From the NCBI GenBank assembly GCA_015178975.1, contig WHVD01000045.1:186001-250000 (forward strand): a DNA stretch of 64,000 nt, read 5' to 3'. The translations under genes were made by a program, and so were the position numbers. Numbering within the stretch: the stretch's first letter is position 1; every line of letters starts with the position of its first letter. Shown here in pieces: positions 14,474-60,784 of this stretch. The DNA is from Hysterangium stoloniferum. Lineage: Eukaryota > Basidiomycota > Agaricomycetes > Hysterangiales > Hysterangiaceae. Under the pieces are notes generated by a model. It searched no databases. It was not told where the DNA came from and worked only from the letters and a program-made list of their open reading frames with translations.

Positions 14474-16313
14474 ATGTCTACTTCCAACGAGACGACTCTG
14501 GGGAATCACGATTCGGCAACGGCTGGGATCTACCTTGAAGACATTGACGAGCTACCACCCTTAGTTTCCCCGGGTGTATCGACTTCAGAGAAACGGGACG
14601 AGATCGTGAAAGGGATGAGAGATGTATTCAAGGAGAAGCTTCGAAAACGATGGGGTTGTAACGAACCCGGTCATGATTTATGTTATCGGGCCCCGGATGG
14701 TCGGCAACACATACAGCTGTCTGCAAACCATATAGAGATTTGGGTTGACGAGTGGGTGAGTAAAGTGTAATGCTATTTCCATGCGATCTGTGTCACATGT
14801 TGCGCATTCAGTGTCAAGGAGAAACGGGCTATCATGACCCACCGAATGTTGTTAAGAGATCCACCAACACGGCATCCAACCTCAGCCCCTATTCCAGTCA
14901 TGTCGATGACTGGGGAATGATCTCGCGGAGTCAGGGGACAATGTCAAGTATTGACATTGGCCCCGGGTATTACTGTGGAGTCGGTTTGGAAAGGGTTGGG
15001 ATGAAAGTCCTTCACGGTGCTAAGACAGCTTCGCTGATCGCAAAGCTGACAATATACCGGGAAATCACCCGTTTGTTACAAGACCATGGTGCCTTTGGCA
15101 AGTTGCTACACAAGCATCTTACGCTGCCAAAACTGGGAAGACTAGTTCAGGATGGTGCTGATTTAGCGAGGTAGGGATACCTCAATCATTGAATACACTG
15201 GAAATACTCATATCTGAGTCGTAGGCCTATATACCCGCCTCAAATTCGGAGACGAGCGACGGAAAAGGGAGTGTCCCGATAATTTCACACATGCGGGGGA
15301 GCAGCAAAGGTCACACTACCGACCTCATGACATTCTTGGCTTGGGCCTTCTTTTACTGCCCCGGCGTTTATACAGACACGTCACCAACGGTGATTACGTC
15401 ATCACTATACAACGTTTTAGTCAAGTCACCGCTGCACACCAACTTTGATGAGGTCGCATCGACATTTATCATACACATCGCCCGTTATCCCTCAGAATTT
15501 GATGGGCCCTTACCCCTTTTCAGCCTTGCTGATATCGTGGAAGGGATCTGCCACATGCGTCCACTATCTGTAAAGGAGCTCACGGCGATCAGAGGTTGCA
15601 TTGAATTGTGGTTACAACCGTGCGTCGCGATATTCCATCATTTCATCCTTCCCACCAAAACCATCACAGCGAATATCAGACACGAGTTGGATGGAATGAA
15701 TATCCGATACCCAGGCTTCTCGTGTGTTGCATGCATCAAGATGCATGGTTTCGAGATATCGCTGGAGCTGTATTGAAGGTTTTATTGGACGACATAAACA
15801 TGCATATAGCGTCATTGACACCTCATCTTCATTGGTACACGCCACTGTATTGGAGTATTGGCTCCTTGGAAATCTTCTTCAGCGACAGCACGCTTCTCAC
15901 CGATCACATCAACCAGCTGAATGTGGTTTCTTCGTTCATCGGACCCATCGTACGGTACGTTCACTATATTTTATCTTCCAGCACCGTCTTACATCCACCC
16001 ACGAAACTGTCCTACCAGTCTCATTCTGACCCACACGAGTCCTAATCGGGATCACCTTGGGTATGGTGAGCGAATAATCGCGTTGACTCTGAAGCTGATA
16101 GCTGGATCTTCCGAGCCCGAATCTGCGTTGACCACGGTGCGCAGCCACGATACCATCCCCATTCTTGTTTCTCTTCTTCCACATTGTGACATTATGCGCG
16201 GCACGACCAACAACAAATCCTACAATTATTCGGTTAAAGATTTAGATTTCACCGCGCGGGCCTTCCTTTGCGTGGTCGCCACACCTACTTGTGTGTCAGT
16301 ACGGTCTAATTAG
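14474..16313 (+). CDS. Family A protein, intact, five exons, 511 residues, function unknown
   Basis: Exons are 14474-14755, 14812-15170, 15305-15619, 15670-15954 and 16019-16313. All introns are GT-AG (56, 134, 50 and 64 bases), and their phases (0, 2, 2, 2) are the same in every copy. The joined frame is 512 codons with no internal stop. Exon 1 is acidic, then basic, then C62-x4-H67-x2-C70-x8-H79 followed by a tryptophan. Across intron 1 comes CQGETGYHDPPN (95-106). This C/H, W, GE and PPN spacing recalls a short domain of many agaricomycete hypothetical proteins (from memory, unverified). Exons 3-5 are mostly hydrophobic and helical-looking (ITSSLYNVLVKSPLHTNFDE; DAWFRDIAGAVL; LLTDHINQLNVVSSF). 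I saw no signal peptide. The start is the ATG of MSTSNET, conserved in sister copies. Confidence 0.75.
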
Positions 16314-17720
16314 ACCCCCCTATCAGTGTTGAAGGCACATAATTGCCCTGACAAAGGTCTTACACCATCGATTGGACACACTTTGTAATCATTTCTCTTC
16401 GATGATGCCGACACATCTCAACCAAACCAGGGTTTCAGCCGGGGTTGCAGATGTTATAAATCTATATGGTTTGAACCTATGTAAGAATTGTATAGTCACT
16501 TTTCATTATCGCCGCGAGCTCCTCAGTTGTCCCCATAAATGTGTTGAATACATTTGCACTAGCCGTGATTAGACTAACATTCGCATTTTAAAGTAAGGTA
16601 TCACTGGAGGTCTGAAAAAGGTCTCCCCACCCCCAATTCGACGCATGTCTCGTTCAGGCTCATCATACCTTCAGGGTAATAATGTTCAATCGACAAGATC
16701 CATAATCTTCCCACCAAGGGCCTCCACAATGTGCTGGGCGAATTCCTTAAACTAATTTTCTTGCATTGAAAACTTGATGATAAATCTGCCATAGGCCGAG
16801 CAAATATAAGAGCGCATACAGTCACGTTTCGCCGCCGCAGCGCGCTCTGCATGATGCACGCGTTGATGCCATACATGCATTGAATACACTCGCGGCCACC
16901 CAGCGGCTAGACTGATATCCTATTTATCAATGACAATCATTTCAAACAGGACGCGAACTTGTGAGTTATATGGAGGTACATAATTTGATACAATTTTAAA
17001 GTGAAGATAGTCGCTTGTAATAGTCGCTGCGAGGTTCTCTACACTGTTGTTGAATATACTCCAATGACTACTCTCTGAAATCACATCGCATATACTAGCA
17101 GTAACAATGTGAATGGAATACCATTACGGGGGCTCAAAGAAGGGGGTCCCACCATTCTTCTCGTGTCCTTTGTTTGGGAGAACAGGAAGCCAGGGCCAAA
17201 CCAATGGACAACACCATGATCAAGACACCGAAATTTCTTCACATGTGTGAGCTTTCACCTTGTGTAAGAGAAAGGTAGCTCGTGGTCATGTCAGCCGGAA
17301 TCCCATATCAACGACGAGCTGAAGAATACCCACGGCCCGCCGCGTGGAGCAGTCATTCCCCGAGATTTTCTGATTTATGGTCTGTTTCAATCTTTCAGTC
17401 GGTAGCGTCAAACTACACGTCACGACAATTTATTTACTCCCCATCCCGACAGTTCCCTGCTGCTTCCATGCCAGTTGAATGGCGTTCATTCCACCAATTG
17501 GTATGTTTGAATTATTTCATTGCGAATAGTAGGGAAAAATTCATTTGATTCAATCTAATATTAATGAACCATTTGACTAGATCCGTGTGCCTTGAACGTT
17601 AGTTGTCGACCCCTGTTCCTTCTCATGCGTTATTCTCTACACCTTTCACTGCTGTGTCGACACCGTTGAGAATTCGAATTACGTCTTCGTTTTCCGGAAA
17701 ATAACCCCCGGAACATAATT
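16314..17720 (+). repeat. Conserved blocks downstream of the first A gene
   Basis: The first block (to about 16572) is kept open as VLHH...DTLCNHFSSMMPTHLNQTR, then LYGLNLCKN in this and six other units, and so may be 3' untranslated sequence or an extra exon. A related block repeats at 16740-16980, and a third lies at 17282-17548 (AGIPYQRRAEEYPRPAAWSSH). The minus strand is open at 16876-16601. Which strand, if any, is translated cannot be settled by eye. Confidence 0.45.
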
Positions 17721-19278: not shown

Positions 19279-21129
19279 ATGTCTACTTCCAACGAGACGA
19301 CTCTGGGGAATCACGATTCGGCAACGGCTGGGATCAACCTTGAAGACATTGAAGAGCTACCACCCTTAGCTTCCCCGGGTGTATTGACTTCAGTGAAACG
19401 GGACGAGATCGTTAAAGGGATGAGAGAGATATTCAGGGAGAAGCTTCAAGAACGATGGCGCTGTAACGAACCAGGTCATGATTTATGTTATCGGACCTCG
19501 GATGGGAGGCAACACATACAGCTGTCCGCAAACCATATAGAGATTTGGGTTGACGAGTGGGTGAGTAAAGTATAATGCTATCTCCATGTGATATGTGTCA
19601 CATGCTGCGCATTTCAGTGTCAAGGAGAAACGGGCTACCATGACCCACCGAATGTTGTTAAGATATCCACCAACACGACATCCAACCTCAGTCCCTATTG
19701 CAGTCATGCCGATGACTGGGGAATGATATCACAGAGTCAGGGGACAATGTCAAGTGTTGAAATTGGCCCCGGGTATTACTGTGGAGTCGGTTTGGAAAGG
19801 GTTGGGATGAAAGTCCTTCACAGGGCTAAGACAGCTTCGCTGATCGCAAAGCTGACAATATACCGGGAAATCACCCGTTTGTTGCGAGACCATGGTGCCT
19901 TTGGCAAATTTCTACACAAGCATCTTACACTGCCAAAACTGGGAAGACTAGTGCAAGACAGTGCTGATTTAGCGAGGTAGGGATACCTCAATCATTGAAT
20001 ACACTGGAAATACTCATATCTGAGTCGTAGACCTATATACCCGCCTCAAATTCGGAGAAGAGCGACGAGGGTTTTAGCAATTTTCCCGATAATTTCACAC
20101 ATGCGAGGGAGCCAGCTTGTGACATCCTTCGCTTGGGCCTTCTGTTGCTGCCCCGGCGTTTATTTGTCAGCGTCAAGCGCGATTACGTCATCACTGTACA
20201 ATGTTTTAGTCAAGTCACCGCTGCACACCAACTTTGATGAGGTTGCATCAACATTTATCATACAAATCACCCGTCATTTCTCAGAATCCCATTATATCTC
20301 AGAATTTGATCGGTGCTTGCCCCTTTTCGGCCTTATGAATATCGTGAAAGCGATCTGCGACATGCGTCCACTATCTGTACAGGAGCTCACGGCGATCAGA
20401 GCTTGCATTGAATTCTGGTTACAACCGTGCGTCGTGCCATCATACCATTTCATCCTTCCCACCAAAACCATGACAGTGAATATCAGACACAACGACTTTA
20501 CTCTTCTGAATCCCCTATCCGGCTTCTATTCTGTTGCATTCACCAAGCTGCATGGTTTCGAGATATCGCCGGAGATGTATTGAGGGTTTTATTGGACGAC
20601 ATACCCATGCATATAGCGGCATTGACACTTCATCTTGATTGGCACACGTCGAACTCACTATATGGGAGTATTGCCTCCTTGGAAATCTTCTTCAACGACA
20701 GCACGCTTCTCACCGATCACATCAACCAGCTGAATGTGGTTTCTTCGTTCATTGGCCCCATCGTACGGTACGTTCATTATATTTTATCTTCCAGCACCGT
20801 CTTACATCCACTCATGAACCTGTCCTACCAGTCCCATTCTGACTCACACGAGTCCTAATCGGGATCTCCTTGGGTTTGGTGAGCGAATAATCGCATTGAC
20901 TCTGAAGCTGATAGCTGGATCTTCCGAGCCCGAATCTGCGTTGACCACAGTGCGCAGCCTCGATACCATCGCCATTCTCGTTTCTCTTCTTCCACATTGT
21001 GACATTATGCGCGGCACGACCACCGACAAACTCTTCAATTACTCGCTTGAAGCTTTAGATTTCACCGCGCGTTCCTTCCTTTGCGTGGTCGCCACACCTT
21101 CCACTTGTGTGTCGGTGCGGTCTAATTAG
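19279..21129 (+). CDS. Family A protein, intact, five exons, 514 residues, function unknown
   Basis: Exons are 19279-19560, 19618-19976, 20112-20426, 20477-20767 and 20832-21129. The sum is 515 codons including a TAG stop, with no internal stop. The CNEPGHDLCY metal-binding-like motif, the WCQGETGYHDPPN junction and the hydrophobic exons 3-5 match its tandem neighbour 4.8 kb upstream. Exon 3 differs: the acceptor is GAGGGAG|C and four codons after it are lost (where the neighbour reads KGHTTDLM), but an ESHYISEFD segment missing from the neighbour is present, so the length is unchanged. Conservation of phase and frame in two close copies argues that the gene is, or recently was, translated. 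Confidence 0.75.
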
Positions 21130-22385
21130 ACCCCCCTATCAGCGTTGAAGGCACATGGTTGCCCTGACAAAGGTCTTACACCATCGATTGGACACACTTT
21201 CTAATAATTTCTCTTCGATGGTACCGACACATCTCAACCAAACCAGGATTGCAGCAAATGTTATAAATTTATATGGTTTGAATCTATGTAAGAACTATAT
21301 AGTCACTTTTCATTATCGCCGCGAGCTCCTCAGTTGTCCCCATAAATGTGTTGAATACATTTGCACTAGCCGTGATTAGACTAACATCCGCATTTTAAAG
21401 TAAGATATCACTCTGAAAAAGGTCTCCCCCACCCCAATTCGATGCATGTCTCGTTCAGGCTCATCATGCCTTCAGTGTAATGTTCAATTGACAAGATCCA
21501 TAATCTTCCCACCAAGGGCCTCCACCCCGTTCGAGTCAATGTGCTGGGCGAATTCCTTAAACTAATTCTCTTCCATTGAAAACTTGACAATAAAGCTGCC
21601 ATAGGTCAAACAGATATAAGAGCGCATACAGTCACTTTTCGCCACCGCCGCGCTCTGCATGTTGCACGCGTTGATGCCATACATGCATTGAATACATTCG
21701 CGGCCACCACCAGCCGCTAGACTGATATTTATCAATGACAATCATTTAAAACAGGACACGAACTTGAGAGTTACGAACCTACATAATTTGATGCAATTTA
21801 CAAGCGGAGATAGTCACTTGTAATTGTCGCTGCGAGGTTCTCTACACTGGTGTTGAATATACTCCAATGACTACTCTCTTAAATCGCATCGCATATACTA
21901 GCAGAAACAACGTCAATCGAATACCACTACGGCGTCTCAAAGCAGGCGATCCCGAGGTCAAGTCAAGCGGAATCCCACATCAACTAAGAGCTGAAGGATA
22001 CCCACGACCCGCCGCGTGGAGCAGTCATTCCCCGAGAATTTCTGGTTTTTGGTCTGTTTCAATGTTTCAGTCGTTAGCGTCAAAGTACACGCCACAACAA
22101 TTTACTTTACTCCCCATCCCGACAGTATGTGGCCATAAAGGTGCTCGCCAAGCAGACACAGCTAGATGCCAGCTTTGACATTCGCAAGGACGTACAGTGC
22201 CTCACAATCCTTAATCTACCTTGCCATCGTCACATCTAACTGCTACAATAATGGATGAATAGTATGATCCTGGAGCGTCGCGGCGAACAGTTCGCTGAGC
22301 AAGACAGAGAACAAAATGTATCCATGTTCGACGATCAGCCACGGGTCAACTATAGTTATCTTTCTTGCTTTGGTTACCACACATA
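21130..22385 (+). repeat. Downstream blocks and B-type remnant, ending at an inversion junction
   Basis: 21155-21379 repeats the VALTKVLHHRLDTLSN block. 21867-22178 carries the EYPRPAAWSSH-like block (here GYPRPAAWSSH), after which a deletion brings in the B-type sequence (CGHKGARQADTARCQL, near 22130-22180). At about 22385 the orientation switches to minus, where the next A copy ends. The minus strand is open at 21602-21408. Confidence 0.45.
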
Positions 22386-23910
22386 AGGAGACGCCAATTA
22401 GGACTCGTGTGGCTCAGGACGAGACTGGTAGGACAGTTTCATGGGCGGATGTAAGACGGTGCTAAGGTAACATATTGTGAACATACCGTACGATAGGCCC
22501 AACGAGCGAAGAAACCACTTCAGCTGGCAGATGTGATCGGTGAGAAGCGTGCTGTCGTTGAAGAAAATTTGCAAGGAGTAAATACTCCCCCACAATAAAT
22601 CTAATATCTCCAAATCAAGATGAAGTGTCAATGACGCTATATGCACGTTTATGTCGTCCAATATAACCTTCAATGCCGCTGCAGCAAAATCTCGAAACCA
22701 TGCATCATGGTGGATGCAACACACGAGAAGCCGTATAGGATGTTCAGATGAGGCAATTAGCGGCCGGTGACTTTGTCTGTTATGCTTTTGGTGGGCGGGA
22801 TGAAATCATGTGATGTGGCGACGCACGGTTGTAACCAGAATTCAATGTAACCTCTGATCGCCGTGAGCCCCTCTACAGATAGTTGACGCAGGTGGCAGAT
22901 CGCTTCCACGATATACACAAGGCCGAAAATTGGTGAGAGATGATAAAATTCTATTAGATAACGGGCGACGTGTATGATAAATGTCGATGCGACCTCATCA
23001 AAGTGGGTGTGCAGCGGTGACTTGACTAAACCATTGTAAAGTGATGACGTAATCTCATTTGACGTATCGCTATATGACGAATGAACGCCGGGGAACCATA
23101 GGAAGGCCGAAGCCAAAAATAGTATCAGGTGGTGGGTGTAACTTTTGCCACCCCGCCTGCATGTGAAGTGAAAATATCGGGAATCTTAAAACCACTGTCG
23201 CTCTTCTCCGAATTTGAGGCGGGTATGTAGGTCTACGACTCAGACATGAGTATTTCGAGTGTATTTAATGATTGAGGTATCCCTACCCCGCTGAATCAAC
23301 ACTCTCCTGAACCAGTCTTCCCAGTCTTGGCAGCGTAAGATGCTTGTGCTGAAACTTGCTAAAGGCACCGTCGTCTTGAGACAATCGACCCATAATTTGC
23401 CCGTATATTGTCAGCTTTGCCATCAGCGAAACCTTTTTTGCATTGTGAAGGACTTTGATCCCAACCCTTTCCAAACCGACTCCGCAGTAATACCCTGGGC
23501 TAATTTCCATACTTGATGATGTCAGAATCTGTGAGATCATTCCCCAGTCATCGGCATGACTGCGATACGGGGTGACGTTGGATGTCGTTGGTGGATATCT
23601 TAACAACATTCGGTGGGTCATGGCACCCCGTTTCTCCTTGACACTAAAATGTGCAGCATGTGACACAGATCACATGGAAATAGTATTGTACTTTACTCAC
23701 CCACTCGTCAACCCAAATCTCTATATGGTTTTCAGACAGTTGTACGTGGTGCTCGTCATCGGGGGCCCGATAACATAAATCATGACCGAGTTCATTACAG
23801 CCCCATCGTTCTCGAAGCTTTTCCCTGAATATCTCCTCAACGCCTTCAAGGTAGGTCTGACCCGTTGCCTCATGATGGTTTCCCAGAGTTGTCTCGTTGA
23901 AAGCAGACAT
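22386..23910 (-). pseudogene. Family A pseudogene with two frameshifts and a lost 3' end
   Basis: Exon 1 (23910-23701) has a clean ATG but lacks 24 codons in frame (the PPLVSPGV part). Exon 2 (23643-23287) is two bases short near 23590, shifting the frame before DDWGM. Exon 3 ends at 22827, but its usual acceptor is altered (GTGGC in place of GTAGC). Exon 4 starts at 22776 and loses one base near 22530 (LTDHICQLK then out of frame). The copy stops near 22386 inside exon 5, at the junction with the plus-strand unit. Introns 1 and 3 keep GT-AG ends. Confidence 0.7.
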
Positions 23911-26000: not shown

Positions 26001-27160
26001 CAGTCGACTGACATGGAAGCAGCAGGGGAACTGTCGGGATGGGGAGTAAAGTAAATTGTTGTGGCGTGTAGTTTGACGCTAACGACTGAAACATTGAAAC
26101 AGACCATAAACCAGAAATTTTCGGGGAATGACTGCTCCACGCGGCGGGTCGTGGGTATTCTTCAGCTCTTAGTTGATGTGGGATTCCTCCTGACATGACC
26201 ACGAGCTACCTTTCTCATATACATGGTGAAAGCTCACGACATGTGAAGAAATGTCGGTGTCTTGATCATGGTGTTTTCCATTGGTTTGGCCCCGGCTTCC
26301 TGTTCTCCCAAACAAAAGACACGAGAAGAATGGGGGGACCGCCTTCTTTGAGACGCCGTAGTGGTATTCGATTGGCGTTGTTACTGCTAGTATATGCGAT
26401 GTGATTTCAGCAAGTAGTCATTGGAGTATATTCAATACCAGTGTAGATAGCCTCGCAGCGACCATTACAAGTGACTATCTTCGCTTTAAAATTGTATCAA
26501 ATTATGTACCTTCATATAACTCTCAAGTTCGCGTCCTGTTTGAAATGATTGTCAGGATATCAGTCTAGCCGCTGGTGGTGGCCGCGAGTGTATTCAATGC
26601 ATGTATGGCATCAACGTGTGCATCATGCAGAGCGCGCTGCGGCGGCGAAACGTGACTGTATGCGCTCTTATATTTGCTCGGCCTATAGCAGATTTATCAT
26701 CAAGTTTTCAATGCAAGAAAATTAGTTTAAGGAATTTGCCCAGCACATTGTGGAGGCCCTTGGTGGAAAGATTATGGATCTGGTCGATTGAACATTACTC
26801 TGAAGGTATGATGAGCCTGAACGAGACATGCATCGAATTGGGGGTGGGGAGACCTTTTTCAGACCTCCAGTGATACCTTACTTTAAAATGTGGATGTTAG
26901 TCTAATCACGGCTAGTGTAAATGTATTCAACACATTTATGGGGACAACTGAGGAGCTCGCGGCGAAAATGAAAAGTGACTATATAGTTCTTACATAGATT
27001 CAAACCATATAGATTTATAACATCTGCAACCCCGGCTGCAATCCTGGTTTGGTTGAGATGTGTCGGCATCATCGAAGAGAAATGATTACAAAGTGTGTCG
27101 AATCGATGGTGTAAGACATTTGTCAAGGCAACCATGTGCCTTCAACACTGATAGGGGGGT
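26000..27160 (-). repeat. Downstream blocks of the 29 kb A copy
   Basis: In minus-strand order: VALTNVLHHRFDTLCNHFSS (27135-26902), then the block at 26873-26601, then EYPRPAAWSSHSPKIS (26202-25972). On the plus strand, 26195-26404 (MTTSYLSHIHGESSRH) and 26601-26873 are open and are also conserved in other units. Confidence 0.45.
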
Positions 27161-29046
27161 CTAATTTGACCGTACTGACACACAAGTGGAAGGTGTGGCG
27201 ACCACGCAAAGGAAGGAACGCGCGGTGAAATCTAAATTTTCCCAGTAATTGACGGATTTGTCGTTGGTCGTGCCGCGCATAAGCTCACAACGTGGAAGAA
27301 GAGAAACGAGCATGGCGATGGTATCGAGGCTGCGCACTGTGGTCAACGCAGATTCGGGCTCGGAAGATCCAGCTATCAGGTTTAGAGTAAAGTCGATTAT
27401 TCTTTCGCCAGACACTAGGAGAACCCAATATGGGCTCGTGTGTGTCAGAATGGGACTGGTAGGACAATTGTATGAGCGGATGTAAGACGGTGCTGGAAGG
27501 TAAAATATAGTGAACGTAGCGTACGATGGGCCCAATGAGCGAAGAAAGCACTTTCAGCTGGTTGATGTGATCGGTGAGAAGCGTGCTGTCGTTGAAGAAG
27601 GTTTCCAAGGAGGGAATACTCCGATACAGTGAGTACGACGTGTGCCAATCAAGATGAAGTGTCAATGACGCTATATGCATGTTTATGTTGTGCAATAAAA
27701 CCCTCAATACAGCTCCAGCAATATCTCGAAACCATGCATCTTGGTGGATGCAACACACGAGAAGCCGTATCGGATATTCATAAAATATAAGTCGTTGTGT
27801 CTGATATTCTCTGTTGTGGTTTTGGTGGGAAGGATGAAATGGTGTGATGGCACGACGCACGGTTGTAACCAGAATTCAATGCAACCTCTGATCGCCGTTA
27901 GCTCCTTTACAGATAGTGGACGCATGTGGCAGATCCCTTCCACGATAGGAATAAGGGGGGAAAGGGGTAAGCGCCGATCAAATGAGACATTATGAGATTC
28001 TGAGAAATGACGGGCGATGTGGATGATAAATGTTGATGCAACCTCATCCAAGTTGGTGTGCAGCGGTGACTTAACTAAAACGTTGTGTAGTGATGACGTA
28101 ATCGCAGTTGACGCGTCTGTATCCCACCACTGAACGCCGGGACACCGCATGAAGGTCCAAGCCAAATATGTCATAAGCTGGGTAGTGTGACCTTTGCTAC
28201 TCCACTTCATTTTAAGTGAAGACACCCAGACATCAACTAAAACCCCCGTCGCTCTTCTCCGAAGGTGAAGGGGATATGTGGGTCTACGGATGTCGGTATT
28301 TCGAGTGTATTCAACATTGACGCTGAGCTATCCCTACCTCATTAAATCAACACTCTCTTGAACTAGTCTTCCAAGTCTTGGCAGTGTAGATCGCTTGTGC
28401 AGAAACTTGCTGAGCGCCCCGTCGTCTTGATCCAATCGATTCACGATTTCCCGTATATTGTCAGCTTTACCATCAGCAAAGCTGTCTTAGCACTGTGAAG
28501 TGCTTTCATTCCAACCCTTTCCAACCCGACTCCCCAGTAATACCCGGGGCCAATTTCAACACTCGAAGATGTCTCAACATACTGCGAGTCCATTCCCCAG
28601 TCCTCGCCATGACCGCGATATGGGCTGAGGTTAGATGTCGTGTTGGTGGATATCCGAGACATAACAAAAATCGGTGGGTTATGGCAGGTCGTTTCTCCTT
28701 GACACTGAAATATGCTGGATGTGACACAGATCCCATGAAAATAGCGTTATACTTGACTCACCAACTCGTCAACCCAAAGCTCTATATGGTTTACAGACAG
28801 TTGTATGTGCTGCTCGTCATCGGGGGCCTGATAACATAAATAATGGTCTGGTTCGTTACAGCTCCATCGTTCCCTGAGCTTCAGCCTGAATTGATTCCTC
28901 ATCCACGCCTCATTGATATTCTCCTGCTGAGTTGAACTCAATACACCTGGGGAAACTAAGGGTGGTAGTTCCTGAACGTCTTCACTGTAGGACGCAGCAG
29001 TTGCCAAATCGTGATTCCCCAGAGTCGTCTCATTGAAGGTAGACAT
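27161..29046 (-). pseudogene. Family A pseudogene with an exon 2 frameshift and a lost intron 4 donor
   Basis: Exons: 29046-28762, 28704-28338, 28196-27861, 27810-27520 and 27455-27161. Exon 2 is 367 bases where the frame needs a length of the form 3n+2; one base is missing near 28455, after KLTIYGK, giving an early TGA. The intron 4 donor is CTACGT instead of GTACGT. All other exons are open, including the full exon 5 to VRSN and its stop. The start ATG and the CNEPDHYLCY motif are kept (the family has GHDLCY). Confidence 0.7.
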
Positions 29047-30460: not shown

Positions 30461-30465
30461 ATGAG

Positions 30466-33230: not shown

Positions 33231-33237
33231 TGGAGTT

Positions 33238-35076
33238 CTAATTATACCCTACCAACACACGAGTGAAAGGAGTGGCGACCACGCAAAGGAAAGAACGTGC
33301 GGTGAAATATAAACGCTCAAGCCTGTAACTGATGTATTGGTCGTTGGTCGAGCCGCACATTACGTCAAAATGTAGAAGGAGAGAAGCGAGAATGGAGATG
33401 GCATCGAGGCCGCGTACTGTGGTACACGCAGATTCGGGCTCGGAAGATCCACCTATCAGCTTCTGAGTAACCGCCATTATTATCTCACCAGACTCCAGGA
33501 GATGCCAACTTGGATTCCTGTGCGTCAGAATCAACCTGGTAGGAAAGTTTCATGGGCGGATGTAAGACGGTGCTGGAAGATAAAATATAGTGAACGTACC
33601 ATACGATGGGCCCAATGAGCGAAGAAACCACATTCAGCTGGTTGATGTGATCTGTGAGAAGCGTGCTGTCGTCGAAGAAGGTTTGCAAAGGGCGCATACT
33701 CCAATACAGTAAACGTGATGCCTCCGAATCAATATGACGTGTCAATGACGCTATATTCATGGGTATGTCGTCCAATACAACCCTCAATACAGCGCCAGCG
33801 ATATCTCGAAACCATGCATCTTGTTGGATGCAACACACGAGAAGCTCTATAGGATATTCATAAAATCTAAGTGGTTGTGTCTGATATTCTCTGTTATGGT
33901 TTTGGTGGGAAGGATGAAATGGTGTGATGGCACGACGCACGGTTGTAACCAGAATTCAATGCAACCTCTGATCGCCGTGAGCTCTTTTACAGATAGTGGA
34001 CGCATGTCGCAGATCGCTTCCACGATAGGAATAAGGGCGAAAAGGGGTAAGCGCCAATCAAATTTTGAGACACAGTGAGATTCTGAGAAATAACCGGCCA
34101 TGTATATGATAAATGTTGATGCGACCTCATCAAAGTTGGTGTGCAGCGGTGACTTGACTAAAACGTTGTACAATGATGACGTAATCACAGGCGACGCGTC
34201 TCCACCTAACCAATGAACGCCGGGGCAGGAAAAGAAGGCCCAAGCCAAGAATGTCATAAGCTGGGTAGTCTGACGTATGCTACGCCGCTGCATATAAAGT
34301 AAAGGCATCGGGTCCCATAAAATCATCCAAGCTCGTTTCCGAATTTGAGGCGGGTATGTGGGTCTACAAAGACGTTGATATTTCGAGTGTATTCAACATT
34401 GACGCTGAGTTATCCCTACCTCATTAAATAGACACTCTCTTGAATTAGTCTTCCCAATATTGGCAAGGTGAGATGCTTGCGTAGAACCTGGCTAAAGGCA
34501 CCGTTGTCGTGAGACAATTGACTGATTATTTTCCCGTATATTGTCAGCTTTCCCATCACCGAAGCTTTCTTTGCACTGTGCAGGACTTTCATCCCAACCC
34601 TTTCCAAACAGACTCCACAGTAATACCCAGGGCTAATTTCAATACTTGATGATGTCCCAAGACTCCGTGAGCTCACTCCCCAGTCATCGTCATGACTGCG
34701 ATACGGGCTGAGGTTGGATGCCGTGTTGGCGGATATCCAAGACATCTTGACAACAGTCGGTGACACAGATCCCATGGACATAGTATTTTACTTCGCTCAC
34801 CAACTCGTCGACTCAGACCTCTATATGGTTTGCAGACAGCAGTATGTGTTCCTCATCATCGGGGGCCCGATAACATAAATCATGGCCGGGTTCGCTACAA
34901 CCCCATCGTTCTTGAAGCTTTTGCCTAAATATCTCTCTCATCCCCTTCTGAATGATCTGGTCCCGTTGCTCTGAACTCAATACATCTGGGGGAAGTAGTT
35001 CATCAACGCCTTCAACGTAGGGCTCAGCCGTTGCCAAATCGTGATCTCTCAGAGTCATCTCGGTGACAGTAGACAT
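33238..35076 (-). pseudogene. Family A pseudogene: nonsense in exon 1 and deleted exon 2 start
   Basis: Exon 1 is 35076-34801; the tryptophan codon of the conserved IEVW is TGA at 34815-34813. The end of intron 1 and the first codons of exon 2 (CQGETGYHDPP) are deleted, with GTGTCAC joined directly to the TVVKMSW part near 34760. Exons 3 (34279-33941), 4 (33890-33600) and 5 (33535-33238) are all open and splice in frame, ending VLVGYN and stop. Its exon 5 groups with the left-arm fragment at 4280 (HFDVMCGST, Y-N end) rather than with the other copies. Confidence 0.7.
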
Positions 35077-35118
35077 TGGTGGGTAGCAGTCGTACTTACA
35101 TTCGAAAGGGGTGCTGAA

Positions 35119-41429: not shown

Positions 41430-42630
41430 TGCAGTGGAGTGGCAGAGGTCACACTACCCGGCTTATGACATATTTGGCTTGGGCCTTCACGTGGTGTCCC
41501 GGCGTTCATCCATCAGCTAGAGACGCGTCAACTGCGATTACGTCATCACTTTACAACGTTTTAGTCAAGTCACCGCTGCACACCAACTTGGATGAGGTTG
41601 CATCAACATTTATCACACACATCGCCCGTGCTGTAATAGAATTCCATGATCCCTTACCCCTTTTCTGCCTTCCGTATATCGTAAAAGTGATCTGCCACGT
41701 GCGTCAACTATCTGTAGAGGAGCACACGGCGATCAGTGGTTGCATTGAATTCTCGTTACAACCGTGCGTCGCGACATTCCATCATTTCATCTTTCCCACC
41801 AAAAGCATAACAGACAAAATCACCGGCGACTATCTCCTTTTTATCACCATCCTACACGGCTTCTCGTGTGTTGCATCTGTTGTAATACGAAGCTATAACA
41901 AATGTACTCAGTCTCGTAGTAAAACGAGCACTATGCTAACCTATAACAAATGTACTAATAATGAATTAGTATCAGTTATAGAACATCATTATCTAGAATA
42001 TCTACTGACCTCAGTCTCGTAGTAAAACGAGCACTGAGGAAAAACTTTTCTAACTCAGAAGTATAGCATATAGATCCGGCAGTTGTGGACCGTAGTGGAC
42101 CTAAACACCGTCACAGACGCGTCGCGCTAATATTCCAACAGCATCCAAGATGCATGGTTTCGAGATATTGCTGGAGCTGCATTTAAGGTTTTGGTGGACA
42201 TAAATATGCATTCAGTGTCATTGACTCATACTGATTCGGAGATATCATATTCACTGCATTTGAGTATCCACTCCTTGCAAACCTTCTTCGGCGACAGCAC
42301 GCTTCTCATCGATCACATCAACCAGCTGAATGTGGTTTCTTCGCTCATTGTGCCCATCGTAAGGTACGTTCACACTATTTTACTATAGCACTGTCTTACA
42401 TCCACCCATGAAATTGTCCTACCAGTCTGATTCTGATGGAAGCGACTCCACATTTCGCACTCTTGCGTTCTGCTGAGAAAATAATAGCGGTTACTCAGAA
42501 GCTGATAGCTGGATCTTCCGAGCCCGAATCTGCGTGTACCACAGTGCGCAGCCTCGATACCATCTCCATTCTCGTTTCTCTCCTTCTACATTGTGACATT
42601 ATGCGCGGCTCGACCAATTACCAATCCATT
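41430..42630 (+). pseudogene. Family A gene fragment (exons 3-5), plus strand, with an LTR in exon 4
   Basis: Exon 3 is open from about 41440 (RGHTTRLMTYLAWAF) to the GTGCGT donor near 41764. Intron 3 ends CATAACAG near 41812. Exon 4 begins with CAA AAT CAC and is interrupted at 41878 by a 263-base solo LTR, resuming at 42141 with DAWFRDIAGAAFKVL. Exon 5 (from about 42433) is open through ACTTVRSLDTISILVSLLLHCDIMRGST, then fuses at about 42630 to downstream-block sequence, giving a false end (LGEREAGPSH). Exons 1-2 are missing behind the copia element. Confidence 0.7.
41878..42140 (+). mobile_element. Small solo LTR, 263 bases, with perfect target duplication GCATC
   Basis: Begins TGTTGTAATACGAAG and ends AATATTCCAACA. 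GCATC flanks it at 41873-41877 and 42141-42145. Removing the LTR and one GCATC gives VCCIQDAWFR-like sequence, continuous with other A copies (one codon differs). It contains a repeated stretch (CTCAGTCTCGTAGTAAAACG at about 41908 and 42011). It is not the same sequence as the neighbouring copia LTR, although both contain CCTCAGTC. Confidence 0.85.
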
Positions 42631-43786
42631 TGTTTGGGAGAACGGGAAGCCGGGCCAAGCCATTAGAAAACACGATGATTAAACCACCAACACTTCTTCA
42701 CATTGTCGTGAGCTTTCACCTTGTGTCAGAGAAACGTACCTCGTGGTCATGTCAGGTGGGATCTGGCAATGACATAATTCAAACATGACAATTGGTGGAA
42801 TGAACTCCAGTCAACCGACATGGAAGCAGCAGGGGAACTGTTGGGATAGGGAGTAAAATAAATTTTCGTGGCGTGTAGTTTCACGCTAACGAGTGAAACA
42901 TTGAAACAGACCATAAACAAGAAAATCTCGGGGAATGACTGCTCCACGCGGCGGGTCGTGGCTATTCTTCAGCTCTTAGTTGATATGGGATTCCGGCTGA
43001 CATGACCACGAGCTACCTTTCCCTTATACAGGGTGAGAACTCACGACGTGTGAAGAAATGTCGGTGTCTTGATCATGGTGTTGTCCATTGGTTTGCCCCC
43101 GGCTTCCTGTTCTTCCAAACAAGGGACACGAGAAGAATGGTGGGACCCCCTTCTTTGAAACGCCGTAGTGGTATTCGATTGACATTGTTACTGCTAGTAT
43201 ATGCCATGCGATTTAAGAGAGTAGTCATTGGAGTATATTCAACACCAGTGTAGAGAACCTCGCAGCGACAATTACAAGTGACTATCTTCGCTTTAAAATT
43301 GTATCACATTATGTAGCTTCATACAACTCTCAAGTCCGCGTCCTGTTAGAAATGATTGTCATTGATAAATAGGATCTCAGTCTAGCCGCTGGTGGTGGCC
43401 GCGAGTGTCTTATATTTGCTCGGCCCCTTTTTCATACCTCTGGTGATATCTTACATTAAAATGCGGATGTTAGTCTAATTACGGCTAGTGCAATGTATTC
43501 AACACATTTATGAGGAGAACTGAGGAGCTCGCGGCGATAATGAAAACTGACTATATAGTTCTTACATAGGTTCAAACCATATAGATTTATAACATCTGCA
43601 ACCCCGGCTGCAATCCTGGTCCGGTTGAGATGTGTCGGTATCATCGAAGAGAAATGATTAGAAAGTGTGTCCAATCGATGGTGTAAGACCTTTGTCAGGG
43701 CAACCATGTGCCTTCAACACTGATAGGGGGGTCTAATCGGACCGTACCGACGGTGTGGCGACCACGCAAAGGAAGGAACGGGCGGT
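42631..43786 (-). repeat. Downstream blocks around an orientation switch at about 42764
   Basis: 42630-42764 is plus-oriented downstream block. From about 42764 the minus-oriented block resumes (SPAASMSVDWSSFHQLSCLNYV, 42947-42770). 43707-43456 holds the VALTKVLHHRLDTLSNHFSS block. A deletion has removed part of the next block near 43410-43430. The antisense frame at 43002-43253 (plus) is open. Confidence 0.5.
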
Positions 43787-45580
43787 TTAATCTAAAGTTT
43801 CAAGCGAGTAATTGATGAATTTGTCGTTGGTCGTGCCGCGCATAATCTCACAATGTGAAAGAAGAGAAACGAGCATGGGGATGATATCGAAGCTGCGCAC
43901 TGTGGTCAACGCAGATTCGGGCTCGGAAGATCCAGCTATCAGCTTCCAAGTCAATACGATTATTCGCTCACCATACCCAAGGAGATCCTGATGAGGACTC
44001 GTGTGGGTCAGAATGAGACTGGTAGGACAGTTTCATGGACGGATGTGAGACGGTGCTGGAAGACAAAATATAGTGAACGTACCGTACCATGGGCCCGATG
44101 AACGAAGAAACCACATTCAGCTCATTGATGTGATCGGTGAGAAGCGTGCTGTCGTTGAAGAAGGTTTCCAAGGAGTCAATACTCCAATACAATGAGTTGG
44201 ACGTGTGCACATCAAGATGAAGTGTCAATGACGCTACATGCATGTTTATGTTGTCCAATAAAACCCTCAATACAGCTCCAGCAAAATCTCGAAACCATGC
44301 ATTTTGGTGGATGCAACACACGAGAAGCTCTATAGGATATTCATAAAAGCGAAGTCGTTGTGTCTGATATTCTCTGTTGTGGTTTTGGTGGGAAGAATGA
44401 AATGGTGTGATGGCACAACGCACGGTTGTAACCAGAATTCAATGCAACCTCTGATCGCCGTGAGCTCCTTTACAGATAGTGGACGCATGTCGCAGATCCC
44501 TTCCACGATATACGTAAGGCGGAAAAGGGGTAAGCGTCGATCATAATGAGATTCTGGTAGAGAATGGGCGATGTGTATGATAAATGTTGATGCAACCTCA
44601 TCCAAGTTGGTGTGCAGTGGTGACTTGACTAAAGCATTGTAAAGTGATGACGTAATCGCCGGTGACGCGTCTCTCTCCAACCAATGGACGCCGGGACACC
44701 ATATGAAGGCCGAAATGAAAGATGTCATAACGCGGGCAGTGTGACCTTTGTTACCCCAAAGTGCAGACCTCGGGTACTTATTGAAAACCAACTGTGCTCG
44801 TTTTCGAATTTGAAGCGGGTATGTGGGCCTACAAAGGACGTGAGTATTTCCAGTGTATTCAACATTGACGCTGAGTTATTCCTACCTCATGAAATCAACA
44901 CACTCTTGAAGTAGTCTTCCAAGTCTTGACAGTGTGAGATGCCTGTGCAGAAACTCGCTGAACACCCCTTCGTCTTCAGACAATCGAGCTAAAATTTGCT
45001 CGTATATTGTCAACTTTGCCCTCAGCAAACCTGTCTTCGCACTGTGAAGGACTTTCATCCCAACCCTTTCCAAACCGACTCCACAGTAATACCCGGGGCC
45101 AATTTCAATACTCGAAGATGTCCCAGCATACTCCGAGTCCATTCCCCAGTCCTCTGCATGACTGCGATATGGGCTGAGGTTGGATGTCGTGTTGGTGGAT
45201 ATCCAAGCCTTCTCAACAACAGTCGGTGGGTCATGGCAGGTCGTTTCTCCTTGACACTGAAATGTGCCGCATGTGACACAGATCCCATGGAAATAGCATT
45301 ATACGTGACTCACCAACTCGTCAACCCAAAGCTCTATATGGTTTGCAGACAGTTGTACGTGCTGCCCGTCATCGGGGGCCCGATAACACAAATCATGGCC
45401 TGGTTCGTTACAGCTCCATCGTTCCCTGAGCTTCAGCAGGAATACATTCCTCATCCACGCCTCATTCATCTTCTCCTGTTGAGCTGAACTTAATACACCT
45501 GGTGAAACTAAGGGTGGTAGTTCCTCAACGTCTTCACGGTAGGACTCAGCAGTTGCCAAATCGTGATTCCCCAGAGTCAT
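43787..45580 (-). pseudogene. Family A copy, nearly intact: lost start codon and shortened C-terminus
   Basis: The usual start is ATA instead of ATG (about 45601-45599). The next in-frame ATG is at 45580 (MTLGNHDLATAES). From there the exons are 45580-45314, 45256-44886, 44768-44424, 44373-44083 and 44018-43787, 502 codons with no internal stop. The normal intron 2 acceptor TAG|C is TAA|C, but CCGAG|G upstream joins in frame and adds about six residues. Exon 5 ends early at a TAA after NYSLETLD, about 20 residues short of its sisters. It could still make a 501-residue protein; I list it as a pseudogene because three separate signals are damaged. Confidence 0.6.
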
Positions 45581-45640
45581 CTCGTTGAAGGTAGATATTG
45601 GCGGGTAGCAATCGGACTTGCACTCGAAAAGAGGTGCTGA

Positions 45641-45650
45641 GCTTTTATGC
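45641..45650 (-). promoter_or_regulatory. TATA-like GCATAAAAGC
   Basis: On the minus strand about 40-60 bases upstream of the ancestral start of the 45.6 kb A copy. The same sequence or close variants recur before other A copies. Confidence 0.35.
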
Positions 45651-49690: not shown

Positions 49691-49693
49691 GGT

Positions 49694-51554
49694 CTAATTA
49701 GACAGTACCGACACACAAGTGGAAGGTGTGGCGACCACGCAAAGGAAGGAACGCGCGGTGAAATCTAAAGTTTTAAGCGAGGAATTGAAGAATTTGTCAT
49801 TGGTCGTGCCGCGCATAATGTCGCAATGTGGAAGAAGAGAAACGAGAATGGCGATGGTATCGAGGCTGCACACTGTGGTCAACGCAGATTCGGGCTCGGA
49901 AGATCCAGCTATCAGCTTCAGAGTCAATGCGATTATTCGCTCACCATACCTAATGAGATCCCGATTAGGACTCGTGTGGGTCAGAATGAGACTGGTAGGA
50001 AAGTGTCGTGAGTGGATGTAAGACGGTGCTGGAAGATAAAATATAGTGAACGTACCGTACGATGGGCCCAATGAACGAAAAAACGACATTCAGCTGGTTG
50101 ATGTGATCGGTGAGAAGCGTGCTGTCGTTGAAGAAGATTTCCAAGGAGCCAATATTCCAATACAGTGAGTTGAACGTGTGCACATCAAGATGAAGTGTCA
50201 ATGACATGTTTATGTCGTCCAATAAAACCTTCAATACAGCTCCGGCGATATCTCGAAACCATGCATCTTGTTGGATGCAACACACGAGAAGCCGGATAGG
50301 ATCTTCATAAAATTTAAGTTGTTGTGGCTGATATTCTCTGTTATGCTTTTGGTGGGAAGAATGAAATGGTGTGATGGCACGACGCACGGTTGTAACCAGA
50401 ATTCAAAGTAACCTCTGATCGCCGTGAGCTCCTTTACAGATAGTGGACGCATGTGGCAGATCCCTTCCACGATATACGTAAAGCGGAAAAAGGGGAAGGG
50501 CCAATCAAATTTTGAGACATAATGAGATTCTGAGAAATAACCGGCTAAGTGTATGATAAATGTTGATGCAACCTCATCCAAGTTGGTGTGCAGCGGTGAC
50601 TTGACTAAAACGTTGTATAATGATGACGTAATCGCCGTTGGGTGACGCGTCTCTATAAACGCCGGGGCAGTAAAAGAAGGCCCAAGCCAATAATGTCATA
50701 AGGTCGGTAGTGTGACCTTTCCTGCTGTGTGAAATTATCGGGACACTCCCTAAAACTTGCGTCGCTCGTCTCCGAATTCGAGGCGGGTATATAGGTCTAC
50801 GACTCAGATATGAGTATTTCCAGTGTATTCAATGATTGAGGTATCCCTACCTCGTTAAATCAGCACCATCCTGAACTAGTCTTCCCAGTTTTGGCAGCGT
50901 AAGATGCTTGTGTAGCAACTTGCTAAAGGCACCATCGTCTCCTAACAAACGGGTGATTTCCCGGTATATTGTCAGCTTTGCGATCAGCGAAGCTATCTTA
51001 GCACTGTGAAGGACTTTCATCCCAACCCATTCCAAACCGACTCCACAGCAATACCCGGGGCCAATCTCAATACTTGACATTGTCCCCTGACTCCGTGAGA
51101 TCATTCCCCAGTCATCGGCATAACTGCGATATGGGCTAAGGTTGGATGTCGTTTTGGTGGATATCTTAACAACAGTGGGTGGGTCATGGCAGGTCGTTTC
51201 TCCTTGACACTGAGATCTGCCGTATGTAACACAGATCACATGAAAATAGCATTATACTTTACTCACCAACCCGTCAACCCAGACCTCTATATGGTTTGCA
51301 GACAGCTGTATGTGCTGCTCATCATCGAGGCCCCGATAACATAAATCATGGCTTGGTTCGTTACAGCGCCATCGATCTTGAGGCTTCTCCCTGAATATCT
51401 CTCTCATCCCTTTAACGATCTCGTCCCGTTTCTCTGAAGTCAATGTCAATACACCCGGGGAAACTAAGGGTGATAGCTCTTCAATGTCTTCAAGGTATAT
51501 CCCAGCCGTTGCCGAATCATCATTCCCCAGAGTCGTCTCGTTGAAAGTAGACAT
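49694..51554 (-). pseudogene. Family A copy with a single one-base frameshift
   Basis: Exons: 51554-51267 (96 codons), 51209-50851, 50721-50388, 50337-50056 and 49991-49694. All splice sites are GT-AG. Exon 3 is one base too long: three Gs at 50640-50642 (CCC on the coding strand) where the sister gene at 60.8 kb has two, which puts DEVASTF out of frame with the exon start. Everything else is open to VLSN and stop. Exon 4 lacks three codons (HIA) in frame. The C-x4-H-x2-C motif is kept (CNEPSHDLC). If the extra base were a sequencing error the gene would be intact. Confidence 0.7.
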
Positions 51555-53530
51555 TAGTGGGTAGCAGTCTCACCTACACTAGAAGGGGGTGCCTTGCTTT
51601 TGTGCCGCCACCAGTCGGAGAGTTAATTCCATGAAGGTACAGCGTTATGGCTGTACTTACACGGGATACACAGCATTTCATTCCTGCCTTCGTCCATAAG
51701 GTTCCCTCACCTTCCTTGAACCTTATAGGCTCCACCGTAATGAGGTCACTACTTCTTACACCTTCCACTGAAGGCTCACACAGCATATAATAATGGTTCA
51801 GTCGATTGTCATCTCATAGTACAGCATTTCTCAGCGTCTGAGTTGAAAGCAAAACCGCTTTTTTGATATCGAGAAGTGACATTGCCATGTACCTTATAAA
51901 TGCAGTCCAAGTGATACCCAATGGTTGCTGCCTTCAAGTTTCCGCTGTCAGCCTCAGGCTTTGTCCAGAGAGATCGCACACTTCCTGTTTTAATTTTGCA
52001 AACTTTCACCGAGGAGAAACCCGGTGCCAGGGATGGCCTAGTCGCATTAATGGTAAGCAACGTGATTTTTTCATTCGCCCTCGCCATATCCTTGGTTGTG
52101 ACGAATCAATCCGGGTGTGTATTAACACATTCTAAATATAATCTCGTCTCAGGCGACACTGACAGCTAGCCTTATTATTATCTCTCTGTCTGAGTGGAAT
52201 GTTTCGCCCCACGCTCACACGATTGATGCGTGGACATTGCTCTTCAAAGCGACGATGACAAGGTAGATCAAGCATTGTGACCCACCCGTAGTGTGACCTA
52301 TTTCAGCTCTTGCGGTATGTAAAGATTCACCATGCTGGCGATGCTAATTTACATTCCCATTTTCTGCCATCTTTCTACCCCCTTCGGTGCTGCCAATTCC
52401 ACTGTGCCCTTGGAGCTCCACATAGGTCACCGTAGCAATCCCTCTTCGTTCCCACACGATAGCCATTCATCGCAGCCCTGGGTTTGTCACCACAATCGAT
52501 CCTTCATTTTCTCGTTTTGGCTAATTTGTCGGTGAAGGAATGGACGAGGTATCCTGAGTCTTAACATACTTCCGAGCTGATAATCGGCCATTGTCGTCAA
52601 AAAATGGGCGGAACATGCGACGCTTGCCACGGCAATACATCATAGTGGCTCTCAGACAATCTCGAGTGCAGCAGGAAAACAAAAGGATTATGTCTTGGGA
52701 ATACCATTTGGATCACTCTTGACGACAATTATACTTCGGTACGCTTGTACCGGACCGAAAACGACAGCAATTCCTTTCAAAGACAGTGGAAATGGTCGAA
52801 CCCAGTCTCAGAATGGTTCAGAAACACTCCAAGGATATTTGCTGCCGTGAGACGTATATATATAGTCTTACAATATATTTAATTATTAGTCACAAAACAC
52901 AAAGTCCTACAAAGCCAAAGGTATCATCAACACAATTCTCGTCAGCGATGAATTCCAAAGTTGCAATGAGCATAAGAAGTGATTGAATGAGCTTTCAACT
53001 CGACTCAAATGATGTAAGTTTATGTAACTATTAATGCCGCCAAAGCGAGCTGAAAAAAAAAGGAAACAGGAAAGATATTATCCTCTTCCTTGCTTGCTTT
53101 CAATATACCAGTGAAAGATGTGGCCACCGTGCAAAGGAAGGAACGAGGGGTAGAAACTAAATTCCAAAACATTCAAGGTTGAACCGGTTCGTCGAGATGC
53201 ACATTGTCCCTTAATGTGGAAGGACATAAATAAGAATGGTGAGGGGAGAGAGCTTGAGAGCTGTGGTACATGCAGATTCCAGGCCAGATGATCCAGCTAT
53301 TAGTTCAGTACAACCGCAATTATTCTGTTGAGAGCCAACACCCGTGGTCAACATGGTCTCCGAGTGATTTGCGTCAGAAATGGACTGGGGAGGAGATCTC
53401 ATGCACAAATGAAAGACAATATTGGAAGAGAAAAGATGGTGAAAATAGTATATTAAGGACTCCACAAGCAAGGAAACCACCCAAGTTGATGTGAATGGAG
53501 AGCAGCACCGTGTTATCATTGAAGAAGGTT
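51555..53530 (-). repeat. 5' flank of the 51.5 kb A copy, duplicated at 60.8-62.76 kb
   Basis: Matches 60785-62758 almost base for base, including minus frames 52087-51809 (ARANEKITLLTINATRPSLAP) and plus frames 52332-52535 and 52786-52986. The first 1.4 kb is the usual upstream region; 53570-53000 is C-type module sequence. The match ends sharply at GAAGAAGGTT (53530 and 62758). Confidence 0.6.
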
Positions 53531-58911: not shown

Positions 58912-60784
58912 CTAATTAGACCGTACTGACACACAAGTGGAAGGTGTGGCGACCACGCAAAGGAAGGAACGCGCGGTGAAATCTAAAGTTTTAAGCGAGT
59001 AATTGAAGAATTTGTCGTTGGTCGTGCCGCGCATAATCTCACAATGTGGAAGAAGAGAAACGAGCATGGCGATGGTATCGAGGCTGCGCACTGTGGTCAA
59101 CGCAGATTCGGGCTCGGAAGATCCAGCTATCAGCTTCAGAGTCAATGCGATTATTCGCTCACCATACCAAAGGAGATCCCGATGAGGACTCGTGTGGGTC
59201 AGAATGAGACTGGTAGGACAGTGTCGTGGGTGGATGTAAGACGGTGCTGGAAGATAAAATATAGTGAACGTACCGTACGATGGGCCCAATGAACGAAGAA
59301 ACCACATTCAGCTGGTTGATGTGATCGGTGAGAAGCGTGCTGTCGTTGAAGAAGGTTTCCAAGGAGCCAATACTCCGAGACAGTGAATTCGACGTGTACC
59401 AATCAAGATGAAGTGTAAATGAGGCTATATGCATGGGTATGTCGTCCAATAAAACCCTCAATACAGCTCCAGCGATATCTCGAAACCATGCATCTTGGTG
59501 AATGCAACACAATAGAAGCTGGATAGGAGACTCATAAAAGTTAAGTCGTTGTGTCAGATATTCTCTGTTATGGTTTTGGTGGGAAGGATGAAATGGTGTG
59601 ATGACATGACGCACGGTTGTAACCATAATTCAATGCAACCTCTGATCGCCGTGAGCTCCCTTACAGATAGTGGACGCATCTGGCAGATCTCTTCCACGAT
59701 ATACGTAAGGCCGAAAAGGGGTAAGTGCCAATCAAATAATGAGACATAATGAGATTCTGAGAAATAACGGGCGATGTGTATGATAAATGATGATGCAACT
59801 TCATCAAAGTTGGTATGCAGCGGTGACTTGACTAAAACGTTGTATAATGATGACGTAATCACCGTTGGTGACGCGTCTCTATCTACCCAACGGACGCCGG
59901 GGCAGTGAAAGAAGGCCGCAGCCAAGAATGTCATAAGCTTCATAGTGTGACCTTTGCCGCTCCCGTAAGAAAATATCGGGAAACTCTCTAAAACCACTGT
60001 CGCTCTTCTCCGAATTTGAGACGGGTATATAGGTCTACGACTCAGATGTGAGTATTTCCAGTGTATTAAATGATTGAGGTATACCTACCTCGCCAAATCA
60101 GCACTGTCTTGAACTAGTCTTCCTAGTCTTGGCGGCGTGAGATGCTTGTGTAGAAACTTGCCCAAGGCACCACCGTCTTGTACCAAACGGGTGATTTCCC
60201 GGTATATTGTCAGCTTTGCGATCAGCGAAGCTGTCTTAGCACTGTGAAGGACTTTCATCCCAACCCTTTCCAAACCGACTCCACAGTAATACCCGGGGCC
60301 AATGTCAATACTTGACATTGTCCCCTGACTCCGTGAGATCATTCCCCAGTGATCGGCATGATTACAATAGGGGCTGAGGTTGGATGTCGTGTTGGTGGAT
60401 ATCTTAACAAAATTCGGTGGGTCATGGTAGCCCGTTTCTCCTTGACACTGAATACGCAGCATGTGACACATATCACATGGAATAGCATTATACTTTACTC
60501 ACCCACTCGTCAACCCAAATCTCTATATGGTTTGCAGACAGCTGTATGTGTTGCCTACCATCGGGGCCCCGATAACATACATCATGGCCGGGTTCGTTAC
60601 AACCCCATCGTTCTCGACGCTTCTTCCTGAACATCTCTCTCATCCCTTTAACAGGCTCGTCCCGTTGCTCTGAACTCAATACACCAGGGGAAACTAAGGG
60701 TGGGAGTTCCTCAATGCCTTCAAGGTCGATCTCATCCGTTGCCGAATCGTGATTCCCCGGAGTTGTCTCGTTGGAAGTAGACAT
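58912..60784 (-). CDS. Family A protein, intact, five exons, 524 residues, function unknown
   Basis: Exons: 60784-60503, 60447-60089, 59959-59615, 59564-59274 and 59209-58912; introns of 55, 129, 50 and 64 bases with GT-AG ends. Total 525 codons including the stop. N-terminal MSTSNETTPGNHDSAT, the motif CNEPGHDVCY, the WCQGETGYHDPPN junction, then the hydrophobic exons 3-5 ending FLCVVATPSTCVSVRSN. The exon 3 acceptor is ACGGGAG|C; the second AG of the tandem acceptor seen elsewhere is lost here. This is the longest intact member and the only intact minus-strand one. Its 5' flank is duplicated at 51.5 kb, where the sister copy carries one extra base. Confidence 0.75.

Follow-up and report, generated by a model that had tools for sequence, protein, structure and literature searches.

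A genome-wide five-exon gene family with a predicted alpha-solenoid and diversifying sites in the fungus Hysterangium stoloniferum

The repeat domains of fungal NLR proteins are the closest described parallel to the gene family reported here. WD, ANK and TPR/HEAT repeats, including those of Podospora anserina, are described as superstructure-forming units that occur in large repertoires, show positive selection at binding-surface sites and are shuffled within and between members (PMC4986451, PMC10197012), and a record of 602 NLR genes has been described (PMC10197012). The present family was found in Hysterangium stoloniferum, a fungus described as ectomycorrhizal (PMC7550596), in a 64,000-nucleotide stretch (the window) of contig WHVD01000045.1, referred to below as C388 (C388:186001-250000), in an assembly of 111 Mb in 554 contigs. 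Its proteins resemble fungal NLRs in having a predicted superstructure-forming repeat domain with diversifying sites, as judged from a fold model and a site model, and the repeat part of NLRs may be taken as the nearest working analogy. They differ in that no NACHT or NB-ARC domain was detected in the two intact window copies, B and C, or in six relatives, and membership of the NLR family is not claimed. The solenoid also lacks near-identical internal repeats in the sequences seen, and the variation studied here is that between paralogues.

The original prediction had read the locus as a locally amplified five-exon family with three intact members (copies A, B and C; Table 1) of 511-524 codons. 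All three start and end at the predicted coordinates with four introns each, and copies B and C are open with the predicted intron phases (0, 2, 2, 2), their lengths under shared splice sites being 541 and 549 codons. Copy A is not intact under the same splice sites: with the acceptor of B and C its exon 3 is 395 nt long and the frame stops at codon 232. Nine other combinations of intron 2 donor and acceptor open the copy; the 511-codon reading begins exon 3 at 15305, with an intron 2 of 134 nt and not 54. The shared acceptor is favoured because the segment it retains, RPxYPxxIRxxA, is conserved at about 50% identity in H. stoloniferum proteins; the end of this stretch falls in a helix of the predicted structure. 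The lesion in exon 3 of copy A does not mark a special hotspot, as exon 3 frameshifts in nine non-open copies fall five before and four after the ITSSLYN motif.

"Locally amplified" understates the extent of the family, whose amplification is genome-wide. The 111-Mb genome holds 342 matches to an exon 2 motif, 349 to an exon 3 motif and 322 to an exon 1 donor motif (up to two mismatches allowed), against none for reversed controls. These counts include fragments, and the family amounts to several hundred copies or fragments. Reading frames were followed in 45 aligned full-length copies: 16 from C388:1-250000, two from C388:600001-610000, 22 chosen by similarity to copy B, three picked with relatives P0005 or P0006, and two from motif places on large contigs. 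In this similarity-biased set, 21 copies are open (541-566 residues), and GT..AG is kept at all four introns in 37, in agreement with the common intron positions noted earlier. Among the copies taken by place, 5 of 16 (C388:1-250000) and 1 of 2 (C388:600001-610000) are open. Extrapolation from five open copies per 23 exon 2 motifs would give roughly 75 open copies genome-wide.

That the protein has been under selection, as originally proposed, is supported by the 21 open frames at about 12% exon divergence, by codon-sized indels, and by the substitution ratios given below. In ten stop-free copies, mean exonic divergence is 0.122, slightly above the intronic value of 0.110; in simulations of neutral substitution without indels, the share of copies that stay open falls from 15% at 0.03 substitutions per site to 5.9% at 0.045 and 2.6% at 0.06. 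Exonic indel runs in these ten copies are multiples of three in 233 of 237 cases, compared with 9 of 76 in introns, which bears out the whole-codon differences seen earlier; the runs were counted over all pairs and are not independent, and openness itself selects codon-sized indels. The ten include C388:64659, a stop-free cut-out not scored open among the 45, and the near-identical copies L007 and L008. In 14 broken copies, 575 of 884 exonic runs are codon-sized.

Codon models were fitted to 18 of the 21 open copies, leaving out L009 (from another subfamily) and the near-duplicates L008 and L039. Once gap columns and their three neighbours in either direction had been masked, 429 of 587 columns remained, and the most indel-rich segments thus lie outside the site tests. 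Exons 1-2 are under purifying selection, with a pooled ratio of non-synonymous to synonymous differences per site (pN/pS) of 0.52 (0.39-0.70), and the pooled value for exons 3-5 is 0.77 (0.62-0.97). The mean is therefore below 1 without being low, and the ratio near 1 throughout that had been named as an adverse outcome was not seen. On a single tree of 429 codons, comparison of site models M1a and M2a gave twice the log-likelihood difference (2dlnL) as 216, with 22 sites above 0.9. The chi-square p-value of this figure was rejected because data simulated under M1a with a separate tree for each exon, when analysed on one common tree, reach a 2dlnL of 71 (24 runs), and a per-exon comparison with a recombining null replaces it. 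With its own tree for each exon, 2dlnL is 2.5, 1.9, 22.6, 47.6 and 48.8 for exons 1 to 5, values reached in 8, 20, 0, 0 and 0 of 37 simulations (of 60 planned runs, 37 finished) in which the tree switches about every 25 codons. Diversifying selection at a minority of sites in exons 3-5 thus survives this control for recombination; no such sites are found in exons 1-2. In a replicate of seven relatives from another subfamily (P0005-P0009, P0011, P0013), the same 22 sites have an entropy of 1.00 bits compared with 0.44 bits elsewhere, a difference reached in 1 of 20,000 permutations.

The copies are mosaics, and pieces recombine between them. Distances between copies correlate at 0.71 for exons 1 and 2 and at 0.57 for exons 2 and 3; in the other eight of ten exon pairs the correlations range from -0.17 to 0.16.

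An AlphaFold2 model is helical from residue 145, with means of the predicted local distance difference test score over 10-residue blocks of 65-94 from residue 161 to 530. From late exon 2 to exon 5 the protein is predicted to form an all-helical alpha-solenoid resembling ARM/HEAT proteins, of which exons 3-5 make up the greater part; exon 1 and the start of exon 2 encode a short N-terminal C..H..C region. Armadillo/HEAT proteins (importin alpha, beta-catenin, APC and WAPL) are among the top structural matches in Foldseek, and families missing from these listings may match as well. Since the best expectation value (E) is 0.0047 and template modelling scores are at most 0.36 among the 50 rows shown, only the general architecture appears to be common to these proteins. 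The family differs from them in lacking a recognisable ARM/HEAT sequence profile (copies B and C match no Pfam family at E ≤ 1), and two sequence-profile matches in the PDB (E 0.38 and 0.9) are not credible. In the model, 20 of the 22 sites lie in helices assigned by DSSP, and the sites oppose the hydrophobic moment in three of five helices that hold two or more of them; for this helix-face test one helix was extended to take in a single further residue (456), so that 21 of 22 sites count as helical there. Neither a signal peptide nor a membrane helix is evident in the protein; in copies B and C hydropathy showed no membrane helices and no hydrophobic N-terminus, the best 19-residue mean within residues 1-38 being 0.33 (B) and 0.60 (C). 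Relatives encoded on other contigs (P0001, P0002, P0004 and P0010) are variants that carry roughly four C..H..C modules one after another at the N-terminus; a shortened solenoid follows these modules in P0001, P0002 and P0004, but not in P0010.

Several points weigh against reading these data as a diversifying recognition surface. Tree-free pN/pS intervals of the hot segments include 1, at 0.96 (0.65-1.46) for C403-480, 1.70 (0.86-4.25) for C405-425 and 0.73 (0.43-1.30) for C455-475, while the site model gives an omega of 1.68 for C403-480; the case for diversifying selection therefore rests on the site model. This model is an implementation of our own in which relative branch lengths are fixed up to one scale factor, recombination inflates it strongly, and the simulated switching is no finer than 25 codons. 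The subfamily replicate is weak when the sites are set against other variable columns (805 of 20,000 permutations), and the result on helix faces is no more than suggestive (322 of 20,000 when the span is kept, 1319 of 20,000 otherwise). The low correlations between exons are partly noise, odd/even ceilings being 0.78, 0.61, 0.42, 0.27 and 0.72 for exons 1 to 5; exons 1 and 5, with the high ceilings of 0.78 and 0.72, correlate at only 0.03. The N-terminal domain is poorly modelled, and Pfam finds neither an effector domain nor a nucleotide-binding one (NACHT, NB-ARC) in copies B and C and the six relatives.

The family appears, in the searches made, to be lineage-specific and hitherto undescribed. 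Copies B and C have no Pfam match at E ≤ 1, and among the six relatives, searched at E ≤ 5, two (P0006 being one of them) have no match and four have matches only below the curated cut-off, in accord with the earlier view that no named family is involved. Protein searches returned 13 family members, all from H. stoloniferum. None was found outside this species, including in a search at E ≤ 10 with residues 45-225; more divergent homologues may have escaped notice, because the method needs shared five-residue words and the other runs scored only the 7,997 best candidates. A similar W.C..H..CY..H motif may occur in other basidiomycetes, which could not be confirmed. No published work on this family was found among the titles and opening parts of abstracts searched.

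Among the first 100 exon 2 motif matches, those listed, 20 contigs from C5 to C114 are represented, and 89 of the matches lie on nine of them (C8, C11, C16, C22, C24, C28, C63, C106 and C114). Family proteins match 65.6 kb (26%) of C388:1-250000, where the 23 exon 2 motifs are divided between the strands (11 on +, 12 on -). The window copies at 27161, 33238, 43749, 49694 and 58912 share one orientation with a spacing of about 6 kb in places. When cut-outs with 6 kb on each side were compared among pairs of the 16 full-length copies of C388:1-250000, shared flanks ended at many different points, upstream between -119 and the cut-out edge and downstream between +1.9 kb and the cut-out edge; some single copies, C388:119457 and C388:64659 among them, show their own limits. 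No fixed ends common to these 16 copies were found, target-site duplications not having been searched for systematically. The variable flank ends and the arrangement of copies fit tandem and segmental duplication and do not show a transposon unit. Copies B and C and six relatives were scanned with Pfam, and no transposase, integrase or reverse transcriptase was detected; domains of transposable elements were seen only in other open reading frames (ORFs) of the region, in 4 of 10 scanned. A transposon or provirus reading is not preferred because no such domain was found in the family proteins scanned and the copies have no fixed common ends, and the family was not found to be the interior of a known transposon family, as the original prediction had allowed it might be.

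A two-gene block of 8.7 kb recurs in the window at 84% identity (26853-35395 and 43426-51878), forming a higher-order repeat. L031 (C112) and L033 (C46), full-length copies on large family-poor contigs, have 24 stops each when spliced, unlike many array copies. Two pairs of open copies are nearly identical, L007 (C547) and L008 (C316) differing by 0.12% and L038 (C316) and L039 (C257) by 0.18%; they may stem from a duplication in the very recent past or from haplotypes that were assembled separately. As the members of these pairs lie on different contigs, haplotype variants of one locus may in some cases have been counted as separate copies, which would inflate copy numbers. No link to telomeres was seen, as none of 11 TTAGGG matches lies on C388, C8, C11, C16, C28, C63, C257, C522 or C547.

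The explanation proposed here, with a probability of roughly 0.5, is a repertoire of intracellular recognition proteins that arose through duplication and ectopic recombination. Copies would multiply in repeat-rich arrays by tandem and segmental duplication, and ectopic recombination would swap pieces between them, so that exons come to have different histories. Purifying selection holds the reading frame, the splice sites and the N-terminal half. Within the solenoid a minority of positions change under diversifying selection, and some of these appear to lie on the sides of helices that point away from the hydrophobic core. Each intact protein may be an intracellular binder whose variable face meets a partner that itself varies (a protein of non-self, symbiont, parasite or allelic origin), the N-terminal part may pass on or anchor the outcome, and the birth, death and shuffling of copies would renew the set. 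Computation yielded the motif counts, the frames, the evidence of purifying selection and of diversifying selection at single sites, the mosaicism and the predicted fold; the cellular location, the ligand, signalling and the immune or allorecognition role are inferred. More tentative is the specific suggestion that one mycorrhizal fungus possesses a germline-diversified solenoid repertoire of several hundred shuffled gene copies without a nucleotide-binding oligomerization domain, in which perhaps some dozens of open copies would bind non-self or allelic partners and gain new specificities through exchange of exons 3-5, and which would be largely missing from protein databases.

Passenger amplification, in which a gene captured by repeat-rich DNA is copied along with it and the open frames are a few functional source copies, is an unlikely alternative. 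Copia, RVT_1-type retroelement and Tc-like ORFs are indeed interspersed among the copies, an open frame was not scored for 11 of the 16 full-length copies of C388:1-250000, and L031 and L033, the full-length pair from large family-poor contigs, are heavily damaged. Such passengers, however, would not be expected to show site-specific diversification, and here introns are kept and fixed unit ends are lacking. Copies of a selfish family of the spore-killer or meiotic-driver type would persist and spread because they are transmitted preferentially, changing to evade suppressors and decaying when suppression succeeds. The wtf genes form one such lineage-restricted family with paralogues, and their proteins have membrane helices. 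Spok is likewise a lineage-restricted family with paralogues (PMC6660238). Restriction to one species in the searches, many broken copies, recombination between copies and fast change at some sites are all compatible with drive. The several hundred copies or fragments nevertheless lie far above the numbers known for the fungal driver families wtf and Spok, membrane helices of the wtf kind are not seen by hydropathy in copies B and C, and nothing links the family to spores, so that drive is also considered improbable. Least probable of the three is that the proteins serve the ectomycorrhizal symbiosis as effectors, either decoys or exported by a non-classical route: the lifestyle of the fungus and a family that is expanded, diversifying and lineage-specific in searches would suit this role, but copies B and C show no hydrophobic N-terminus by hydropathy, and open copies of 541-566 residues exceed the size typical of small secreted effectors.

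The original prediction is thus supported as regards a protein-coding family under selection, and not as regards three intact members and a local amplification. Its damaged sister copies are present in the window as four other full-length or nearly full-length copies with lesions and one truncated copy (Table 1).

Table 1. Family copies and exons in the window, with contig positions in parentheses where available
Feature	Position	Strand	Basis	Remarks
Copy A	14474..16313	+		Full length; exon 3 frame broken under shared splice sites
Copy B	19279..21129	+	Spliced model	Open
Copy B exon 1	19279..19560	+	Spliced model	N-terminal C..H..C motif region
Copy B exon 2	19618..19976	+	Spliced model	Carries GYYCGVG motif used in genome count
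Copy B exon 3	20031..20426	+	Spliced model, site model	Predicted solenoid; indel-rich segments
Copy B exon 4	20477..20767	+	Spliced model, site model	Predicted solenoid
Copy B exon 5	20832..21129	+	Spliced model, site model	Predicted solenoid; stop codon
Copy C	60784..58912	-	Spliced model	Open
Copy C exon 1	60503..60784	-	Spliced model	
Copy C exon 2	60089..60447	-	Spliced model	
Copy C exon 3	59615..60034	-	Spliced model	
Copy C exon 4	59274..59564	-	Spliced model	
Copy C exon 5	58912..59209	-	Spliced model	
Sister copy	27161..29046 (C388:213161-215046)	-		Full length; frame lost in exon 2, intron 4 lacks a GT donor
Sister copy	33238..35076 (C388:219238-221076)	-		Full length; frame lost in exon 2, intron 1 lacks an AG acceptor
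Sister copy	43749..45598 (C388:229749-231598)	-		98% covered; start position lacks ATG, premature stop close to 3' end
Sister copy	49694..51554 (C388:235694-237554)	-		Full length; exon 3 out of frame
Truncated sister copy	22376..23910 (C388:208376-209910)	-		84% of gene
Partial copy	41438..42618	+		Pieces of exons 3, 4 and 5; beside Copia-like element
Partial copy	4283..4907	-		Exons 4 and 5
Degenerate copy	8895..9734	+		Protein identity 38-50%; internal stops

Several conserved ORF clusters are present in the array besides the family. Ten other array ORFs scanned with Pfam (E ≤ 0.01) gave three retroelement matches, one Tc-like match, one weak RING match and five without a match. The RING finger match, below the curated cut-off, belongs to a 545-residue ORF inside an array contig (L021:7833-9467, +). 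In the window, the array is interrupted by an element (36438-41109, +) whose ORFs look Copia-like on visual inspection, and a simple repeat between these ORFs yields an opposite-strand ORF (38975-39703) with an SVPFR repeat. A pair of long ORFs of a different type, 388 and 165 residues in length, lies at 4826-6719 on the minus strand; the larger has no Pfam match at E ≤ 0.01, and its 3' end overlaps family sequence.

A repeat-rich contig can thus be a dense array of genes under selection, and the 13 members found in protein databases stand against more than 300 genomic motif matches. If the proposed explanation is true, fungi would gain a recognition repertoire without a detected nucleotide-binding switch, with a copy number comparable to that of large NLR sets. 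It would also bring testable predictions, concerning which residues bind and which exons are exchanged, and a further one that copy content differs between wild isolates.

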